DNA of 64,000 bases, from the NCBI GenBank assembly GCA_000701625.1, contig JNJK01000005.1, forward strand, positions 124,001-188,000. Direction: 5' to 3'. Positions 43,730 through 52,036 of the stretch are shown one piece after another. Every line of letters begins with the position of its first letter. Position 1 is the first letter of the stretch. Position numbers and translations under genes: made by a program. The notes beneath the pieces are model-generated. The model was not told the origin of the DNA, did not search any database, and saw only the letters and a list, made by a program, of their open reading frames with translations. The DNA comes from Lachnospiraceae bacterium MC2017 (GTDB lineage Bacteria > Bacillota > Clostridia > Lachnospirales > Lachnospiraceae).

Positions 43730-44944
43730 ATGAAACTTGATCAGATAATCATATCATTACTGGAAACCGATCTTTATAAATTCAGCATGGGACAGGCGAT
43801 TTACCACCAGTTCCCGGGATACAAGACAACTTGGACATTTAAGTGCAGAAATAAAGATGTACACTTTACTGCTGATATGGTAACTGAGATCAAGGAGCAG
43901 ATAAAAGCATACTGTAATCTGCGTTTTACCGAGGAAGAGCTTGAGTATCTCGACGGTATCAAGTGGATCAAGGGTTCTTATGTGGATTTTCTCCGTCTCT
44001 GGCAGCCTCGCTTCGAGGACTTCGAGATCACAACCGATGCTGAATGCGGTCTTGCTATAGATACAAAGGGAACATGGCTCAATACTTCCATGTATGAGAT
44101 CCCGACTCTCGCTATCGTAAACGAAGTTTACTTCCGTATGCAGTATAACTACGATGAACTTCTTGAAAGTTTCAAAGAAAAGCTCGACGAAAAATACAAC
44201 AAGCTCCATTCAGGCACATGGTATGCAGGCGTTTTCTCCGAATTTGGTCTCCGCCGCAGACTTTCAGCTGAAGCACAAGCTCTGGCTGTCGAGAAATTCT
44301 CACACTTGAACGATACGATGGAATGTTCCTCTAGCTTTATCGGTACAAGCAACGTATATCTCGCAAAGAAATTCGGCATCACTCCTGTAGGAACTATGGC
44401 TCATGAATGGATCATGTGCGTAGGTCAGGGAAATCATAAGCATAACCCGGCTTACTCTAACTGGTACGCGCTCAATGCCTGGGTCAGAGAATACGGCGTC
44501 CTTAACGGAACTGCTCTTACAGACGCTATCACTACCGACTGCTTCTTAAAGGATTTCCAGCTAACATTTGCTACCCTCTTCTCCGGTGTAAGGCATGACA
44601 GCGGCGATCCGATAGAGTGGGGAGAAAAAATGATCAGGCATTACGAAAGTCTTGGTCTTGATCCTAAGAATAAGACTCTCCTCTTCTCTGATTCACTTAA
44701 TTTCGAGAAAGCCGATGCGATCTTCCGCCACTTCCATAACAGGACAAAGGTTGCATTTGGTATAGGAACCTATCTTTCAAACGACACCTCGGTTCCGGCA
44801 CTTAATATCGTTATGAAGACCACCGCCTGCAACGGTCAGGACGTAGCAAAGATCTCCGACACTCCCGGAAAAGGCATGTGCAGAAATCCCGAATACGTCG
44901 ATTACCTGCAGAGATGTATCGACTGGAGAATGCAGCACGAATAA
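43730..44944 (+). CDS. pncB: Nicotinate phosphoribosyltransferase
   Basis: A 404-residue enzyme that couples nicotinate to phosphoribosyl pyrophosphate, forming nicotinate mononucleotide. Family marks are the opening LLETDLYKFSMGQAIYHQFP, the active-site MAHEWIMCVGQGN (His near residue 224), TLFSGVRHDSGDPIEWGEKM and KVAFGIGTYLSNDTSVPALN. The length suits the short E. coli-like class. It follows pncA on the same strand with the repeat in between; GGAGG precedes the ATG. With pncA and the NrtR-like gene it completes a nicotinamide-to-NAD salvage unit. Confidence 0.96.
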   Translation: MKLDQIIISLLETDLYKFSMGQAIYHQFPGYKTTWTFKCRNKDVHFTADMVTEIKEQIKAYCNLRFTEEELEYLDGIKWIKGSYVDFLRLWQPRFEDFEITTDAECGLAIDTKGTWLNTSMYEIPTLAIVNEVYFRMQYNYDELLESFKEKLDEKYNKLHSGTWYAGVFSEFGLRRRLSAEAQALAVEKFSHLNDTMECSSSFIGTSNVYLAKKFGITPVGTMAHEWIMCVGQGNHKHNPAYSNWYALNAWVREYGVLNGTALTDAITTDCFLKDFQLTFATLFSGVRHDSGDPIEWGEKMIRHYESLGLDPKNKTLLFSDSLNFEKADAIFRHFHNRTKVAFGIGTYLSNDTSVPALNIVMKTTACNGQDVAKISDTPGKGMCRNPEYVDYLQRCIDWRMQHE

Positions 44945-45096: not shown

Positions 45097-45633
45097 TCAT
45101 TTTTTCAACAAATCCTGCAACGTGTATTCACCTTTACGTACATCAGAAACATGCTCATACATATGAATACTTTGAAGAAGATCATCAATGTTTTTGAAGT
45201 ACGTTTTCACCCATTGCCTACTTTTTAAATTCTCCTTTTTGAAGATCTGTTTACAGTATTCACTAGGTTTCATCCCAGATTTCTTAAACTGATCATATTT
45301 TCCCTCATTAAGAATAATAAGCATTTCTATTTCAGGAGCCGTAATAACGTTTATAACATCAACATTATCACAGTACGGACGACTCAATCTAAATTTTTCT
45401 CTTCTTGAATCAAGTACCCGAATAATCGTAAGCTTAAAATTTATTCTTACATTGAGATATCTTTTTTCAAACGTTCCGGCATTTCTACACCTTATTATCT
45501 CGCCATAGAAAAGATCTTCTTCTGAAAATATCAGCTTTTCAGCATCAAGAAGCATCTCCATTATTGCGGTTTCCGCTCCACCTTCGCATATTACAGCAAC
45601 CTTTTCTCCGAGGTTGATCTTCTCTCTTTTCAC
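45097..45633 (-). CDS. RloB/TOPRIM-like partner protein of the ATPase
   Basis: A 178-residue protein, tentatively RloB-like. Near the N-terminus VAVICEGGAETAIMEMLLD carries the CEG...E pattern of RloB and TOPRIM-type nucleases; IIRVLDSRREKF (near 72-82) occupies the place of the acidic DxD but has only one aspartate. ITAPEIEMLIILNEGKYDQF (97-116) recalls the NPxFExWLLLHF segment of RloB. The start overlaps the ATPase stop by four bases, so they are translationally coupled. Such ATPase-effector pairs (RloA/RloB, PARIS AriA/AriB, OLD-type) act in phage defence; whether this one does is an inference. AT-rich codon use contrasts with pncB. Confidence 0.55.
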   Translation of the reverse strand: MKREKINLGEKVAVICEGGAETAIMEMLLDAEKLIFSEEDLFYGEIIRCRNAGTFEKRYLNVRINFKLTIIRVLDSRREKFRLSRPYCDNVDVINVITAPEIEMLIILNEGKYDQFKKSGMKPSEYCKQIFKKENLKSRQWVKTYFKNIDDLLQSIHMYEHVSDVRKGEYTLQDLLKK

Positions 45634-46787
45634 CTTATCTCCCCCTGAAGGAATTTTCTATAATCCTGAACAGCCTCATAGCTTGGTGCAGTACCATTCA
45701 GATAATCGCTGTCATAAGCAAGACTTTTCTTAATATCATTTCTGGTGAAACGAGACGCAAGGTTTTCTAACGATATTCCCTCTTCATTCCTAATAATATA
45801 AGTATTATCATTTCGATCAAACTCATCCAGCAATGACGAATAATGCGTTGAAAATATTAATCTTGCACCATTTTTATTAATACCAATATTTTGGAATAAC
45901 CTGATCAATACAGCAACAAGTTCCCTATTAAAATGATTTTCCATTTCATCTATCAGAAGAACTCCACCATTCTTAAATATTTCTGCAGCTACCATATAGA
46001 CAGTTAGTCCCTTTATAGTACCTGAAGATAAATAGAGATTTAATTCTCTTTCATTTGAGAGTATTATTTCTTCCTTCTGTCTATAGAACTTCAACCGTAT
46101 ATCTTTCTTCAAACCTTTCTTCTCATAACGAAGATATTCAACACTAGGATCCAACATTTTCAAAAGACTAGATGGAAAAGAAGCTTCCACTTCCAATCGG
46201 TTGTCATCCGTTATATCAGACAAATCCTTATAATTAATCTTACACGCATGCTCTTTATTGTATGCGATCATAATACTTATATCGTCTCTAAGATATGCCT
46301 CATTATTATCTCTGTTTACTTCAGAATCATATTTTGTAAAATCAAAAAGATTTTTCTTATACTTTACTCTTTTAGCTGACTTCGACTTCAAACTTTCATC
46401 CAAAATAACATATCTTCTTTCATTACTGCTTCTATCAAGTCCAATCTCTACTGATAAAACATTTACATTTTCATCATCATAAAAGAAAATCTCTAGTTTC
46501 AGACAGTCATCATCATTCATAACCGCTAGTACATCCCGTACTCCAGTATTATTTATCTGATTTGCCGAAAGCAAATTCAAGACAAATGAAATCATGTTCA
46601 GAACGATCGTCTTTCCAGAAGCATTAATCCCGATAAGAGCTATCACGTTATTCAGATAAATATTTGAAAACAAATTTGTCATCTGATCACAATCTTCATC
46701 TGTAACCCTATGCGAAGCAATAAAATCTATTGTTTCGCTTTTCCTAAATAAAGGATATCCCGAAATAACAATTCTTAATAGCTTCAT
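45630..46787 (-). CDS. AAA/ABC-type ATPase of a two-gene unit
   Basis: A 385-residue ATPase of the AAA_15/AAA_21 (RloA/OLD-like) group. It starts MKLLRIVISGYPLFRKSETI behind GAGGTC. Walker A is GINASGKTIVLNMI at 53-66, the ABC-like signature LSSGTIKGLTVYM near 262, Walker B GVLLIDEMENHFN near 285-297 and the H-loop LIFSTHYSSLLDEF near 320-335. Between them (80-250) is a lid with many charged residues and no recognisable domain. It has no nuclease domain of its own; that role would fall to the partner gene, whose start overlaps this stop. AT-rich DNA compared with flanks suggests horizontal acquisition. Confidence 0.8.
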   Translation of the reverse strand: MKLLRIVISGYPLFRKSETIDFIASHRVTDEDCDQMTNLFSNIYLNNVIALIGINASGKTIVLNMISFVLNLLSANQINNTGVRDVLAVMNDDDCLKLEIFFYDDENVNVLSVEIGLDRSSNERRYVILDESLKSKSAKRVKYKKNLFDFTKYDSEVNRDNNEAYLRDDISIMIAYNKEHACKINYKDLSDITDDNRLEVEASFPSSLLKMLDPSVEYLRYEKKGLKKDIRLKFYRQKEEIILSNERELNLYLSSGTIKGLTVYMVAAEIFKNGGVLLIDEMENHFNRELVAVLIRLFQNIGINKNGARLIFSTHYSSLLDEFDRNDNTYIIRNEEGISLENLASRFTRNDIKKSLAYDSDYLNGTAPSYEAVQDYRKFLQGEIR

Positions 46788-47122
46788 CTTTGACCTCACT
46801 TTACATTATTTACGAGTTTTATGTAATTATTCACTCCTATTCTAAATGTTTAGAGTTGTTACTTCAAGCAACAATTACGTTTTTTCTGTAAATAATCGCA
46901 AAAAGACATCCAACAACATTTCATTCATACTTACTCCTCCAAAATTATACAAATCTAAGTCCATTGCGTCATATCCAAACAATGCTATAATTATTATGGT
47001 TTTCTGTATTCTATAATATATGTTGATGTAAGATTCAAAGATACAATTTATACTTCATAACAAACTAAGGGATGCCTTGCGTAATAAAGGGGCTCAAGCA
47101 TGGCACAGGGGGGAAATATCAT
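46788..47122. other. 335-base AT-rich region between divergent units
   Basis: Promoter space for the ATPase unit (minus) and for the propeller/HD-GYP gene (plus). Two TATAAT elements are present near 46986 and 47012 on the plus strand. No structured RNA was recognised. Confidence 0.55.
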
Positions 47123-50100
47123 ATGAAGGAATGGAAAGTCGCTAAGATTATTCTGTTTGTTACGCTATGCGTATGCATGAATGTTTTCGGAAGGCTTCTG
47201 TCAGTCTCGATCGGCCTGCCTCTTTGGACCGATTCATTCGGCACGGCAATGTGTTCCTGTGTTGCCGGGCCGGTCTGCGGTGCCATTGTGGGAGTTACAG
47301 GAAATCTTGCATACGGCGTTGTGGATCACCTTTCTGCCGCATACGCTGTCACCAGTGTCGCTCTTGCCATTATCATAGGCAGGGCAGCAAAAAAGCATTG
47401 GTTTGATCATTTCTACGGCTTTATGGCTGCCGCTTCTTTAGCTATGCTCACGGCACTGATCGTTTCTGTGCCCGTCGATCTCATTTTTTCAAACGGATAT
47501 ACAGGTAATATATGGGGTAACGGTGTCATTGATTATCTTTTAGATAAAGAATGGCCTCCTTTTATATGCACGGTTTTAGGACAGCTCACGATTGAATTTC
47601 CAGATAAGATCCTTACTATGGCTGCAGTATATGTGACTCTTATTATAATGGACATCCGGGGCGAAAATGGAAAAAAGGGAAACATATCTGCTTCAGGCAG
47701 GACTGCTGCAGGTATCACTTTATTCTTATGCACGTCACTTGCTCTTTCCCTTATCATATCCTCCCCCGCTGAGGCTCGAAACCAGTCAGATTCCATAGAT
47801 TACAACGACTACGTTCAAAGCATTTACAGCAGTAATAACGGTCTTCCTTGCGGCGAAGCCAATGACATTGCCCAGACTAATGACGGGGTTCTCTGGATAG
47901 GCACTTATGCGGGCCTGTACCGTTATAACGGACGAGAATTCCGCTGGGTGGATAACTTTGAATCTGTTAAAAATGTTAACTGCCTTTATGTAGATGAGGA
48001 AGGACGTCTCTGGATAGGAACCAACGACAACGGCCTGTCTATCATGATCCGGGAAAAAATAGTAAATGTCCTGGATCAGACCTCCGGTCTCCCATCCAAT
48101 TCTGTCCGCAGCATCGTACGGGCTTCCGACGGCTATTATTATATCGGCACCACAAACAGCATGCTTGTTGTGGCCATGAATAACGGTCTGAAGGCTGTAA
48201 ACACCCTCGATGAAGTGAAATATGCTGACAGCATAGCCGCAGACAAAAACGGCCATGTAGCAGCCGTTACCTCAGACGGAAATCTTTTCCTGATGGAGAA
48301 TGGTAAAATTCTGGACTCTATTAAATTGCCGGATAAAGAAGAAATTTTTAACTGCTGCGCTTTTTCTTCTGACGGAAAACTAAAAGCCGGATCATCAACA
48401 GATCATATCTACACCTATGACATTTCCGGAGGCAGTTTTAACCAGCAGTATAAAACTACTCTCGATGGTGTAAGCAGCATAAACGATCTGAGTTACTTAG
48501 ATAACGGAACACTTTTTATCTCCGCAGACAACGGTGTATCCTATGTAGACAGCACGGGTTATCATCCATTAAATACAAATAATTTCGATAATTCCATTGA
48601 CAACATGCTTTGTGACTATCAGGGAAATCTATGGTTTTCGTCCTCAAGACTTGGTCTCCTTCGCCTGTCCAAATCTCCCTTCAAGGATGTATATGGATCT
48701 ATCGGAATGGAACGACGGGTAGTAAACGCTGTCGTAAGCTGGCAAAATTCCTATTACATCGGCACAGATACAGGTCTTGATGTGGTTGACAGGGATTGCC
48801 GCAAACAGATTTTTAATGAATTAACCGAAGATCTGAACGGAAAGCGTATCCGCTGTATGTATGTGGATAATGAAGATCATCTCTGGGTATGTACCTATGG
48901 AGACGGCCTTCTGGAATACTCCCCAAACGGAGAATCCTGGCAATATAATTCCGAAAGCGGAAGCTTTGGCAACCGTGCCCGGATAGTGACCGGTCTTTCA
49001 GATGGAACTATCCTCGCAGCAGGAGATACAGGAATAAGTTTTATCAGAAACCATGAGATAACGCAGACAATACGGGGTGAAGACGGGCTTATCAATTCCA
49101 TGATCCTGACACTTACAGAACGTGATGACGGCTCTATTCTCGCAGGAACAGACGGCGACGGCATTGCCGTTATCAAGGACGGAAAGATACAGAAGATGCT
49201 AACCCGAGATGACGGACTCAGCAGCGGCGTGATATTACGAACCGTTAAAGATCCCAAGTCCGAAGGAGTTTTCATCGTCACCAGCAATAGCCTGTGTTAC
49301 CTCGATCCTGACGGAGCAATTAGAATTCTGGATAAATTCCCGTATTTCAACAACTATGATATATGGGTCAAGGACGAGGATACATTGTTTGTCATGTCCA
49401 GCGCAGGAATTTATGTTGTAGAGCGCGACGAACTGGTAGACGGCGGTGAGATCGCGTGGGAGCTTCTGGATGCTAAAAGAGGTCTTGGCACCTCTCTCAC
49501 TGCCAATTCCTGGAATTATTATAACGAAAACAGTGAACTATTCCTTCCCTGTGATATGGGTGTCTATATCATTGATGTAGATAAATACAACAGTGACATC
49601 CGTTCCTACAGAATGCAGATCGCGTCTGTCCGTCTTGACAATGTACTCCAGCCTCTCCCCCGCACCGGAGTCATATCTGTCGGCAGAACCGTAAACCGCG
49701 TGGAACTTGGCCCTGAAATATTGAATTACACTATCCAGGAACCCAACGTTGGTTATTATCTGGAAGGTTATGATACTCAATGGACAATAGTTCCTCAGAA
49801 TAGCCTTAGTAGTATCATATACGGAAATCTTCCTTCCGGAGAATACACCTTCCATCTCGCCATTATTGACAGTGCAGGTGAAAAAGTTCTTGAGGAACGT
49901 ACTTTTGAACTGATAAAAGAAGGTGAAATATATGAAAGACCGGGCTTTATGGCATATGTTCTCATTCTTCTGATACTGTTCATTATCTGGTTCACCTGGC
50001 TTGTAGTACAGCGTCAGCTCAACCAGCAGCAGATAAAGATAAATATGGCAAACGAAACTGTTATGGCAATCGCTAATGCAGTTGATGCAAAGGACGTCCG

Positions 50101-50785
50101 TACACACCAGCATTCCTCAAGAGTTGCTGAGTATTCCGTACTGATCGCCGATGAAATGCACTGCTTTAAGGGGCCCCACAGGAAGAAAGAACTTTCAAGT
50201 CTCCGTAAAGCCGCTCAGATGCATGATATCGGAAAGATAGGAATACCGGACAGCGTTCTGAACAAGGTCGGACGGCTTACCGATGAAGAATATGCCAAAA
50301 TGAAATCCCACGTTATAGGCGGTTCGGAAATCCTGAAGGACTTCACCCTTGTAGAACATGTTCTGGATGGAACCAGATACCATCATGAACGTTATGACGG
50401 CCGTGGATATCCTGAAGGATTAAAAGGAGAAGAAATCCCTCTGTTCGCGCGTATTATCGGAGTCGCTGATGCATTTGACGCCATGACTTCTAACCGTGTT
50501 TACAGAAAACACATGGACACAGATTATGTCATGAACGAAATGAAACGCGGAAGGGGTACTCAGTTTGATCCGGATGCATTGGACGCATTTTTACGGTTGG
50601 TGGACAGAGGTGTTATCGATCTGGATGCACTTTATGCAGAAAAGCAGAAAGAAGCTCAAAATCTGGATAAAGATTCAGAAGAAGAGCTTACACGCCGTGT
50701 TGAAGAAGATAAAAAAATTCAGGCTGCTGAAATGCAAAAAGATGTACAGAAAAATTCGACTGATGAGAAAGGAGCTAAGGAATGA
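47123..50785 (+). CDS. Membrane sensor: S-component-like domain, beta-propeller, HD-GYP
   Basis: A 1220-residue chimera. The start is MKEWKVAKIILFVTLCVCMN, after a G-rich ribosome site. Residues 1-185 hold five or six membrane segments resembling ECF-transporter S components (LPLWTDSFGTAMCSCVAGPV; GAIVGVTGNLAYGVVDHLS). A further membrane segment near 195-215 leads to an extracellular two-component-regulator propeller at 225-825 (repeats such as GVLWIGTYAGLYRYNGREF, GRLWIGTNDNGLSI, DHLWVCTYGDGLLEY). Then come a Y_Y_Y domain at 860-925 (GYDTQWTIVPQNS), a membrane segment at 940-962 and HD-GYP at 975-1165 (MHDIGKIGIPD; HHERYDGRGYPEGL), with catalytic residues intact, so a c-di-GMP phosphodiesterase is likely. 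A charged coiled tail ends the protein. The stop overlaps the BMP gene start. Confidence 0.87.
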   Translation: MKEWKVAKIILFVTLCVCMNVFGRLLSVSIGLPLWTDSFGTAMCSCVAGPVCGAIVGVTGNLAYGVVDHLSAAYAVTSVALAIIIGRAAKKHWFDHFYGFMAAASLAMLTALIVSVPVDLIFSNGYTGNIWGNGVIDYLLDKEWPPFICTVLGQLTIEFPDKILTMAAVYVTLIIMDIRGENGKKGNISASGRTAAGITLFLCTSLALSLIISSPAEARNQSDSIDYNDYVQSIYSSNNGLPCGEANDIAQTNDGVLWIGTYAGLYRYNGREFRWVDNFESVKNVNCLYVDEEGRLWIGTNDNGLSIMIREKIVNVLDQTSGLPSNSVRSIVRASDGYYYIGTTNSMLVVAMNNGLKAVNTLDEVKYADSIAADKNGHVAAVTSDGNLFLMENGKILDSIKLPDKEEIFNCCAFSSDGKLKAGSSTDHIYTYDISGGSFNQQYKTTLDGVSSINDLSYLDNGTLFISADNGVSYVDSTGYHPLNTNNFDNSIDNMLCDYQGNLWFSSSRLGLLRLSKSPFKDVYGSIGMERRVVNAVVSWQNSYYIGTDTGLDVVDRDCRKQIFNELTEDLNGKRIRCMYVDNEDHLWVCTYGDGLLEYSPNGESWQYNSESGSFGNRARIVTGLSDGTILAAGDTGISFIRNHEITQTIRGEDGLINSMILTLTERDDGSILAGTDGDGIAVIKDGKIQKMLTRDDGLSSGVILRTVKDPKSEGVFIVTSNSLCYLDPDGAIRILDKFPYFNNYDIWVKDEDTLFVMSSAGIYVVERDELVDGGEIAWELLDAKRGLGTSLTANSWNYYNENSELFLPCDMGVYIIDVDKYNSDIRSYRMQIASVRLDNVLQPLPRTGVISVGRTVNRVELGPEILNYTIQEPNVGYYLEGYDTQWTIVPQNSLSSIIYGNLPSGEYTFHLAIIDSAGEKVLEERTFELIKEGEIYERPGFMAYVLILLILFIIWFTWLVVQRQLNQQQIKINMANETVMAIANAVDAKDVRTHQHSSRVAEYSVLIADEMHCFKGPHRKKELSSLRKAAQMHDIGKIGIPDSVLNKVGRLTDEEYAKMKSHVIGGSEILKDFTLVEHVLDGTRYHHERYDGRGYPEGLKGEEIPLFARIIGVADAFDAMTSNRVYRKHMDTDYVMNEMKRGRGTQFDPDALDAFLRLVDRGVIDLDALYAEKQKEAQNLDKDSEEELTRRVEEDKKIQAAEMQKDVQKNSTDEKGAKE

Positions 50786-51975
50786 AGAGAGTTTACATTG
50801 CCACCCTGTTAACTTGCCTTGTATTACTCGCCGCTTTCATTGGCTTTTTTCATATTTTTAATTTTACCGGCGGAAAGGACAGTCTTAAAGTTGGCTTTAT
50901 CTACGACAACGATGAAAGCACTCCATATACCTACAATTTTTCACTTGCAAGAGACGCTCTTGAAAAGAAATATGGTGAAAAGGTTCAGATCTTAACCTGC
51001 AGCAACGTCCTTGATGATGAAATGGAGGAACCTCTTCGGGAACTTGCAGATCAGGGCTGCGACATCATATTTTTCAACGGCTACAGCGAGCTTGTAATGA
51101 AACTGGCTCCGGAATACCCTGATATCCAGTTCTGCCAGACTTCATATATGGATATGAACGGCCAAAAAGTCCCGGCCAATTACCATACTTTTAAGGGAGA
51201 AGCCTATCAGGGACGATACGTGAGCGGAATTGTGGCGGGCATGAAGATCGACCAGATGATAAAAGACGGGGTCATCACAAAGGATCAGGCACTTGTAGGA
51301 TTTGTTGCTGCATTTCCTACATCAGAAGTCATTTCAGGTTATACGGCTTTCATCCTGGGAGTACGGTCAGTTGTGCCTGAGGCTGTGATGAAGGTGTCAT
51401 ACACTCATACCTGGAGCAGTTATGCCGAGGAAAAAAGTGCAGCACAACGTCTTATAAACAACGGTTGCGTGATCATTTCCCAACACACAGACACTATCGG
51501 TCCTGCCATTGCCTGTGAGGAAAACGCGGGAGACGGAATAGTCTTCTTCGTCGGATACAATCAGAGCATGTCCGAAGTAGCCCCTGTAACATCTCTCGTC
51601 ACCTCCAGAATTTGCTGGGAACCCTATGTACTGGAAGCAGCAGATGCAGTTATGTCCAATAGAAAGATCGAATCCGTTGTTTCAGGGCACACACATGGGA
51701 CAGATGTATCTGCCGGATTTGAAAAGGGCTGGGTGGAAATGATAGACCTGAACCAGCAGGTTGCAGCTCAGGGAACTCAGGAAGCCATAAACAGCGCTAT
51801 TGAAAAATTTAAACGTGACAAAACAGACTTCGTTTTCAAGGGAGATTACATCGGAATTGATCCGGATGATCCATCAAAAACCATTGATCTAAAAAAAGGT
51901 TATATAGAAAACGAGAACTCTTCGTATCCTACGTTTAATTACATTCTTTCAGATATCATCACGACAACGAATTGA
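50782..51975 (+). CDS. BMP/PnrA-type substrate-binding protein, N-terminally anchored
   Basis: A 397-residue periplasmic-type binding protein of the BMP (basic membrane protein, PnrA/Med) class, typically for nucleosides. The N-terminus has an uncleaved-looking hydrophobic anchor (VYIATLLTCLVLLAAFIGFFHIF) and no lipobox at the usual place. Family marks: LKVGFIYDNDESTPYTYNFS; YQGRYVSGIVAGMK; VGFVAAFPTSEVISGYTAF; CVIISQHTDTIGPAIACEEN; FVGYNQSMSEVAP. It overlaps the sensor gene by four bases and has no ABC permease beside it, so it more likely feeds ligand occupancy to the sensor than to a transporter; this is inferred from gene order. Confidence 0.87.
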   Translation: MKRVYIATLLTCLVLLAAFIGFFHIFNFTGGKDSLKVGFIYDNDESTPYTYNFSLARDALEKKYGEKVQILTCSNVLDDEMEEPLRELADQGCDIIFFNGYSELVMKLAPEYPDIQFCQTSYMDMNGQKVPANYHTFKGEAYQGRYVSGIVAGMKIDQMIKDGVITKDQALVGFVAAFPTSEVISGYTAFILGVRSVVPEAVMKVSYTHTWSSYAEEKSAAQRLINNGCVIISQHTDTIGPAIACEENAGDGIVFFVGYNQSMSEVAPVTSLVTSRICWEPYVLEAADAVMSNRKIESVVSGHTHGTDVSAGFEKGWVEMIDLNQQVAAQGTQEAINSAIEKFKRDKTDFVFKGDYIGIDPDDPSKTIDLKKGYIENENSSYPTFNYILSDIITTTN

Positions 51976-51999: not shown

Positions 52000-52036
52000 A
52001 TATGGCAGCCACAATGATCATTTGTGGCTGCCATAT
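52000..52036. terminator. Perfect 15-pair hairpin between convergent genes
   Basis: ATATGGCAGCCACAA (52000-52014) and its exact complement (52022-52036) with a 7-base loop. U-runs are weak on both sides, so termination efficiency is uncertain. Confidence 0.65.

Follow-up and report, generated by a model that had tools for sequence, protein, structure and literature searches.

In Vibrio cholerae, a binding-protein homologue, NspS, interacts with MbaA, a membrane enzyme of cyclic diguanosine monophosphate (c-di-GMP) turnover, and sets its activity (excerpts of PMC8967002; PMC9993111); the pair has homologues in Sinorhizobium. Membrane domains with the fold of an energy-coupling factor (ECF) transporter S-component have also been described as the input of 5TMR sensor kinases and receptors, whose modular fusions extend to GGDEF, EAL, MCP and hybrid kinases, so that S-component folds in receptors are already published (Partipilo and Slotboom 2024, excerpts of PMC11109136). 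The sensory inputs of HD-GYP phosphodiesterases are poorly known. Here we describe a two-gene unit from Lachnospiraceae bacterium MC2017 (assembly GCA_000701625.1, contig JNJK01000005.1, positions 124,001 to 188,000, forward strand), a stretch of 64,000 nucleotides hereafter called the window and numbered from its first letter. The unit consists of a membrane sensor ending in an HD-GYP domain and a BMP/PnrA-type binding protein (hereafter BMP).

An initial annotation, made from the sequence alone, had proposed that a nucleoside-like ligand captured by the BMP or by the membrane domain of the sensor sets c-di-GMP breakdown. Our analyses partly support this interpretation. Because the BMP gene is conserved beside the sensor gene and the membrane domain is S-component-like, BMP-linked sensing that sets c-di-GMP breakdown is the best reading of the locus. 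We consider it fairly probable that the two proteins form a dedicated, transport-independent sensing unit, that is, a binding-protein-coupled c-di-GMP phosphodiesterase.

Results

The sensor and BMP genes are near-obligate partners

The two genes are as follows.

47123..50785, + strand: sensor gene, 1220 amino acids (aa), ATG at 47123 and stop ending at 50785; predicted S-component-like domain, internal signal-peptide-like helix, two-propeller Y_Y_Y ectodomain, transmembrane (TM) helix and HD-GYP domain.
50782..51975, + strand: BMP/PnrA-like binding protein, 397 aa; PF02608 E=9.5e-26, 3s99 E=6e-30, AtzT (6pi5) E=3e-26.

As the initial annotation had noted, the sensor stop overlaps the start of a BMP/PnrA-type gene. 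The BMP start lies within the final sensor codons, giving a 4-nt overlap (ATGA), and is preceded by an AAGGAG stretch; the protein scores 90.9 bits with PF02608 against a cut-off of 24.1.

Relatives were sought in a collection of one genome per species (84,980 species) with the S-domain and propeller part of the sensor as the only query, and the best 80 of at least 520 relatives were kept, selection being by sensor similarity alone. The sensor 3′ end lies inside the contig at 77 of these 80 loci, which defines the evaluable set (L136, L199 and L200 run off the contig within the sensor). Conserved adjacency had been set beforehand as a check, and a BMP gene was indeed the next match downstream of the sensor at 76 of the 77 evaluable loci, with query identities down to 42%. 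The identical 4-nt overlap is present at 50 of the 76. Scored as paired were also some irregular loci: L126, where the sensor frame stops early and the BMP follows 287 nt on; L187, with a BMP fragment at the contig end, 91 nt on; L133 and L143, with a two-piece BMP frame; and L191, with a BMP frame from an early start. Within the window's genus, a BMP orthologue (at least 48% identity) was found in 19 of 48 genomes and the sensor lies directly upstream of it in 18 of the 19, the remaining orthologue beginning at a contig end. Pairing was likewise seen in two genomes of two further genera. Among the 80 loci the hosts are mostly Lachnospiraceae and other Clostridia, with many rumen metagenome assemblies; five hosts have isolate-like titles (KH1P17, NC2007, AC3007, AC2028 and MSJ-21), and two contigs labelled Treponema (of which one is not evaluable) and one labelled Chloroflexi come from metagenome-assembled genomes and may be misbinned.

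Apart from the BMP, a frame antisense to it and a gene at −1 (SBP_bac_3, see below), every neighbour cluster between −4 and +5 is confined to at most 4 loci at any given position. This count took one frame per stretch by length and lost genes beneath long antisense frames; it is a lower bound for any third gene, because it returned 19 SBP_bac_3 neighbours versus 27 by tblastn. A conserved third gene downstream of the BMP was considered and rejected, since the neighbours differ between loci. With no conserved third gene beside the pair, there is no conserved permease there either. The argument for pairing rests on survival of the pair where its surroundings changed, and the sensor-BMP pairing is, by this computation, near-obligate.

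Sensors of related architecture were also checked for a BMP neighbour (BLAST, E 1e-3). No adjacent BMP hit was found for the propeller-HD-GYP genes without an S-domain in the window's genus (8 of 8), or for three genes in which the S-domain and propeller are fused to a hybrid histidine kinase (L045:6481-11100, L046:6900-11810 and L047:6684-11573). Because the S-domain-less genes have no adjacent BMP gene, the propeller alone fails to explain the pairing. At a further locus (L048:763-3998), an S-domain plus propeller frame runs to the contig end before any output domain. Propeller-HD-GYP proteins of ∼1380 aa at L049:14433-18560 and L068-L071 carry ∼370 extra residues after the HD-GYP domain, to which Pfam gave no name in the one scanned (L049).

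A second binding protein, of family 3 (SBP_bac_3), lies directly upstream of the sensor at 27 of 72 loci by tblastn (for example, L150:7025-7969) and is lacking at the window's locus. Eight of the 80 loci were excluded from this count for too little upstream sequence, a remote hit at L140 was dropped, and Pfam was run on three. On a tree of 73 of the 80 sensors plus that of the window (>1100 aa; 26 of the 27 SBP_bac_3 loci included), the distribution of SBP_bac_3 requires five changes, and the window's locus may have lost the gene.

The paired BMPs have lost transport hallmarks

The BMP gene of the window begins with a hydrophobic segment.

50794..50862, + strand: N-terminal hydrophobic stretch of the BMP; no lipobox by pattern, putative uncleaved anchor.

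For comparison we used seven canonical BMPs, of which only that of the L044 operon was Pfam-scanned, the others being typed by ATPase- and permease-size neighbours, and seven kinase-paired BMPs. The latter belong to another type of BMP-linked sensor, in which tandem BMP genes lie ahead of a hybrid histidine kinase (HisKA-HATPase-receiver-Hpt); there are four such loci in three genomes of the same genus (L049:6903-11878, L057:5059-10001, L073:6522-11497 and L074:7334-12242). The lipobox pattern was found in 6 of 7 canonical BMPs, in 0 of 7 kinase-paired BMPs and, as loose matches, in 13 of 70 sensor-paired BMPs, that of the window having none. An AxA-like site followed the same order (5 of 7, 0 of 7 and 6 of 70, respectively). 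Because these cleavage motifs are missing, the N-terminal stretch would act as an uncleaved anchor. The sensor-paired BMPs have thus lost the hallmarks of transport, namely the permease and, usually, the lipobox.

The closest solved relatives of the window's BMP are 3s99, whose deposited structure contains adenine, and the guanine-binding protein AtzT (excerpts of PMC6834077). We compared the pockets of 69 of the 76 paired BMPs (>340 aa) at the AtzT contacts Tyr45, Ser97, Phe98, Glu165, Trp194 and 218/220. Of the 69 proteins, 66 retain Tyr45, 64 retain Glu165 and 66 retain Trp194; the residues at 218 and 220 are as in 3s99, His218 in 65 and Asp220 in 55. The Ser97-Phe98 base-contact loop is missing in 53 of 69 and reads Ser-Tyr in the other 16, as against Ser-Phe in 7 of 7 canonical BMPs. 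Thus, the aromatic and acidic purine contacts mostly persist but the base loop is gone from most paired proteins, so that the nucleoside-like ligand initially proposed is only a candidate. Taken together, this pattern suggests a dedicated receptor subunit with an altered pocket.

The BMP could instead be an ordinary transport binding protein for a permease encoded elsewhere, sharing a transcript with the sensor only to keep uptake and signalling under joint regulation. The retained BMP fold and most of the pocket residues are consistent with this, and ∼30 kb further on the same genome has a canonical BMP operon (L044) that includes ABC_tran and two genes for BPD_transp_2 permeases. Against it, the lipobox is mostly gone, as in the kinase-paired BMPs, the pocket loop is shortened in most paired BMPs, no third gene and hence no permease is conserved at the pair, and the link to one sensor type is near-obligate. 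We therefore regard a transport role as unlikely.

In a further set of frames of ∼580-680 aa (L058:6228-8189, L059:6759-8801, L060, L061, L062 and L063), a BMP domain follows an N-terminal part of ∼230-320 aa; in L058, the only one Pfam-scanned, the BMP domain alone was named.

The membrane domain has a predicted S-component fold

47138..47665, + strand: S-component-like membrane domain, aa 6-181; NF045596, AlphaFold2 model, Foldseek matches to RibU, ThiT and FolT, BLAST match to an ECF-operon S-component of the same genome.

The S-component similarity that had been read into the membrane domain was recovered by profile, by sequence and by fold. The domain matches ECF_S_CD3073 (NF045596) with E=1.4e-13 and 50.9 bits, far below the equivalog cut-off of 180, and is only a distant relative of the CD3073 S-component equivalog; its PF07694 (5TMR-LYT) score of 9.8 bits is below the Pfam cut-off of 24.6. 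An AlphaFold2 model of aa 1-216, built with 53 sequences, has a predicted local distance difference test (pLDDT) score of 88.8 and a predicted TM (pTM) score of 0.80; these 53 rows, like the 38 of the full-chain model below, were hand-picked for diversity. In a Foldseek search against the PDB, of which 50 of 101 matches were listed, the 11 listed matches with a probability of at least 0.96 are all ECF S-components (RibU, ThiT and FolT), with TM-scores of 0.46-0.55 and weak E-values (0.03-0.7); the remaining listed matches have probabilities of 0.35 or less. Thus, computation assigns the domain an S-component fold, as judged from the predicted model.

All 53 S-domains also match, by plain BLAST (E 5e-17 to 7e-41), a 200-aa protein of the window's genome, to which the window's S-domain is 33% identical (E=2e-31). 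This S-component is flanked by an isochorismatase-fold hydrolase and by EcfT, a double ABC ATPase, an HTH-3H regulator and a PfkB kinase, and the operon is an ECF transporter operon with a CD3073-like S-component (L203:6659-11717; in L204 the regulator and kinase form a single frame). Eleven residues are invariant in the 53 sensors, and 10 of them are identical in the L203 S-component, the exception being Gly153, which is Asp there. The S-domain is therefore the receptor counterpart of a related transporter component and may share its type of ligand. NiaR, a 3H regulator, responds to niacin, and the 3H regulator beside the L203 S-component thus offers a weak lead to the ligand.

The AXXXA motif of helix 1 occurs in 4 of 53 S-domains, that of the window not among them. 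Its loss was considered as a sign of lost transport and set aside as unusable, since the S-component of the L203 ECF operon has no strict AXXXA either. No EcfT or EcfA gene was seen at the window locus, and across the 80 loci there is no conserved third gene.

S-domains also occur with other partners. Frames at L046:4736-6919, L047:12332-14545 and L054:5980-8115 encode proteins of 711-737 aa with an S-component-like domain, a middle part between two further hydrophobic helices, and an HD-GYP domain; S-domain frames of about this size (∼711-737 aa) are frequent in the genus. A motif search for further S-domain proteins missed 13 of 17 loci, and these three known frames were read instead.

A conserved signal-peptidase-like site follows helix 7

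47702..47776, + strand: seventh hydrophobic helix, internal signal-peptide-like; site scans, linker pLDDT <50; predicted cut after AEA (aa 216-218), between 47776 and 47777.

In the AlphaFold2 model, helix 7 spans aa 194-211; it leads into the propeller and ends in SPAEA-RNQS. An A/V-x-A site at signal-peptidase distance after this helix is present in 66 of 78 sequences (74 HD-GYP sensors including that of the window, plus L045-L048), compared to a mean of 28.3 and a maximum of 39 in 500 rounds of shuffled tails. A slightly different scan found the site in 67 of 78 after helix 7 versus 1-16 of 78 at five other helix regions, and the helix before the HD-GYP domain has it in 0 of the 28 sensors where the pattern located that helix. 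Sites were scored with a simplified matrix that follows the (−3,−1) rule as generally understood. Signal peptides are variable in sequence, and mean pairwise identity is 20% for the helix-7 stretch, 46% for the S-domain and 79% for the propeller start. Residues 182-223 form the longest low-confidence part of the full-chain model (pLDDT <50). Nine propeller proteins without an S-domain start with a hydrophobic, signal-like N-terminus (unscored). In the three S-domain HD-GYP proteins where a shorter middle part takes the place of the propeller, no such site is visible by eye at helix 7. In the S-domain-propeller frames L045-L048, a signal-peptidase-like site follows helix 7 in L045-L047 by scan, and in L048 by eye. 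A literature search on internal signal peptides in bacteria found nothing useful.

From these patterns we infer that an S-component gene was fused ahead of a signal-peptide-bearing propeller sensor, and that the site has been kept because it is used. Signal peptidase probably cuts after helix 7, which would yield an S-component-like protein and a propeller-TM-HD-GYP sensor from one gene. The "one-polypeptide" switch of the initial annotation thus stands as a single gene, but the chain may become two: helix 7 resembles an internal signal peptide and has a conserved signal-peptidase motif, so that cleavage may separate the S-domain from the propeller and HD-GYP domain.

Cleavage bears on two further explanations. 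In the first, the polyprotein is cut at the internal signal peptide, the S-component-like receptor and the propeller-TM-HD-GYP part re-associate with the anchored BMP (and in some species SBP_bac_3), the S-domain receives its ligand from the BMP, and c-di-GMP levels are governed by the resulting complex. We hold this full sequence of events to be unlikely; if true, the S-domain would be the first binding-protein-fed S-component. In the second, the S-domain is a working transporter subunit that docks after cleavage on shared EcfT-EcfA, making the gene a polyprotein of a vitamin-type importer part and a sensor. The conserved cleavage motif, the three EcfT (CbiQ family) hits in the window genome and the 10 of 11 invariant residues common to the L203 S-component fit such an importer. 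The AXXXA docking motif speaks against it, being present in only 4 of 53 domains, though the L203 S-component also has no strict version, as does the lack of any EcfT gene seen at the locus, and we consider it very improbable.

The ectodomain and the HD-GYP output

47798..49612, + strand: regulator beta-propellers, ∼aa 226-830, limits approximate; Pfam Reg_prop, Foldseek matches to the BT4663 and BT3049 ectodomains.
49613..49918, + strand: Y_Y_Y domain region, ∼aa 831-932, limits approximate; PF07495 E=6e-10, full-chain model.
49946..50092, + strand: long helix, aa 942-990, TM helix continuing as linker into the HD-GYP domain; full-chain model.
50072..50575, + strand: HD-GYP phosphodiesterase domain, aa 984-1151; PF13487 (HD_5) E=2e-34, 4mcw E=1e-39, invariant His/Asp.

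Profiles and motifs confirmed the sensor anatomy initially proposed, an S-component-like domain, a propeller with Y_Y_Y and an HD-GYP domain with intact motifs; Reg_prop was matched in five stretches (E=1e-24). The full-chain prediction (aa 1-1190, 38 sequences) modelled the domains with a pLDDT of 83.9, but their relative placement is unreliable because the pTM is 0.57.

The best structural matches of the full chain are the ectodomains of BT4663 and BT3049 (Foldseek, E down to 4e-31). This raises the explanation that the true stimulus is a carbohydrate or glycan on the propeller, as in the heparin sensor BT4663, with the BMP and S-domain tuning or assisting. The propeller start is far better conserved than the S-domain (79% versus 46% mean identity), and many relatives are rumen bacteria by title, both of which fit. 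A glycan stimulus accounts poorly for the BMP, since BT4663-type sensors are, to our knowledge, not described with a BMP partner and the S-domain-less propeller HD-GYPs of the genus have none adjacent. We doubt that it is the main signal.

The HD-GYP domain contains the motifs HDIGK and HHERYDGRGYP, and nine residues (H997, H1034, D1035, K1038, H1063, H1087, H1088, D1092 and D1116) do not vary among the 38 sensors aligned. A c-di-GMP network is likely in the host, since searches of the window's genome gave 42 GGDEF domain hits above cut-off as well as 4 PilZ hits. From its sequence, the HD-GYP domain is predicted to destroy c-di-GMP. Two features complicate this prediction. At aa 993, the sensor has Arg where PmGH (4mcw) has Glu, which we take to be a metal ligand; the exchange suggests a two-metal site, and neither the metal site nor the substrate is fixed by it. 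The second-best PDB match of the domain is 5z7c, a 3′3′-cGAMP phosphodiesterase. Hydrolysis of another cyclic dinucleotide such as 3′3′-cGAMP, or a role as a catalytically weak regulator, would accommodate both features. The remaining catalytic residues and the GYP motif are kept, however, and the 42 GGDEF hits also point to c-di-GMP, so that we judge these alternatives quite improbable.

Gene starts, transcription unit and neighbouring genes

47109..47114, + strand: Shine-Dalgarno-like G-rich stretch 5′ of the sensor ATG; from sequence.
52000..52036, + strand: terminator-like inverted repeat with a 15-bp stem, 3′ of the BMP gene, between convergent genes.

The earliest ATG of the open sensor frame is at 47072 and the start context is better at 47123; the Pfam and NCBIfam searches with the sensor were made on the 1237-aa reading. 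The gene upstream of the sensor is divergent and that downstream of the BMP is convergent, and because of these orientations and the terminator-like stem, the transcription unit most likely comprises the sensor and BMP genes alone. No ABC permease was named among the six proteins scanned at 45-55 kb, in agreement with the initial annotation.

Divergent from the sensor, window positions 45097-46799 encode an AAA ATPase and then a small protein without a Pfam match over cut-off, a pair that we take to resemble a mobile or defence-type two-gene unit. A nicotinate phosphoribosyltransferase is encoded at 43730-44944, 2.2 kb upstream of the sensor. As a clue to the ligand it was dropped, since it is near the pair at only 3 of 89 loci, those of the window and two close relatives.

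Discussion

In the mechanism that we infer for the sensing unit, from anchoring by an uncleaved helix through docking, ligand and direction of control to HD-GYP activity, the BMP would be held at the outer membrane face, most likely by its N-terminal helix, and would bind a small solute. It would dock on the extracellular side of the sensor, through the propeller/Y_Y_Y ectodomain, the S-component-like domain or both. Whether the BMP is loaded or empty would then be relayed through Y_Y_Y and the helix at aa 942-990 to the HD-GYP dimer and alter the rate of c-di-GMP hydrolysis. In about one third of relatives, SBP_bac_3 is added upstream as a second binding protein.

Several observations weigh against this reading. 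At L190, the single exception to the pairing, no BMP was found within 7.3 kb downstream. The 76 pairings are not independent events because the loci share ancestry in the tree, and most of the paired loci are metagenome-assembled contigs. By the loose lipobox pattern, up to 13 of 70 paired BMPs could be lipoproteins. A TM-like N-terminal stretch was considered as proof of anchoring and is not discriminating, as all 7 kinase-paired and all 7 canonical BMPs share it with 69 of the 70 sensor-paired ones. Distance correlation was likewise tried as a means of locating the docking part and proved indecisive: the correlations between sensor and BMP across 66 pairs are all high (0.75-0.87), with partial r values of 0.60 for the S-domain, 0.48 and 0.56 for the propellers and 0.56 for Y_Y_Y, and cannot tell which part of the sensor meets the BMP. 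Arg993 and the 5z7c match belong on the same side.

The locus represents an HD-GYP unit coupled to a binding protein and conserved in gut Clostridia, whose input has an S-component fold and whose possible internal cleavage can be tested. For anaerobic Gram-positives, it could reveal the means by which solutes outside the cell reset c-di-GMP, and it supplies natural examples for studying the origin of receptors from transporter folds.

A keyword search of one open literature library returned no paper on a BMP or propeller HD-GYP sensor or on the sensor-BMP unit, and comparison must therefore be made with systems that share parts of it. Binding-fold proteins partner membrane sensors in XylFII-LytS, LuxP-LuxQ and TorT-TorS, where the output is a histidine kinase and the ligand families differ; XylFII is membrane-anchored. 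BT4663 and BT3049 of Bacteroides share the propeller plus Y_Y_Y extracellular sensor but are hybrid two-component systems by entry title, and we know of no S-domain or BMP partner for them. With the PnrA/BMP nucleoside and purine binders (AtzT, 3s99 and PnrA), the paired BMPs share the PF02608 profile and most base-contact residues; they differ in usually lacking a lipobox, in having no adjacent permease and in mostly lacking the Ser-Phe loop. Compared to the 5TMR receptors, the model of the window's sensor has no extra N-terminal helix, and an extracellular propeller follows, split off by the internal signal-peptide-like helix; the words HD-GYP, propeller and BMP do not occur in the main text of that work (PMC11109136). 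As in NspS-MbaA, a binding-protein gene stands beside that of a c-di-GMP enzyme with no conserved permease (76 of 77 loci). NspS, however, binds polyamines and MbaA is a GGDEF-EAL protein, and the parts that are new relative to that system are the PF02608 BMP, the S-component-like domain, the propellers, the HD-GYP domain and the possible cleavage. The sensor-BMP unit is thus best read, by analogy, as a Gram-positive analogue of NspS-MbaA and not as a member by descent.

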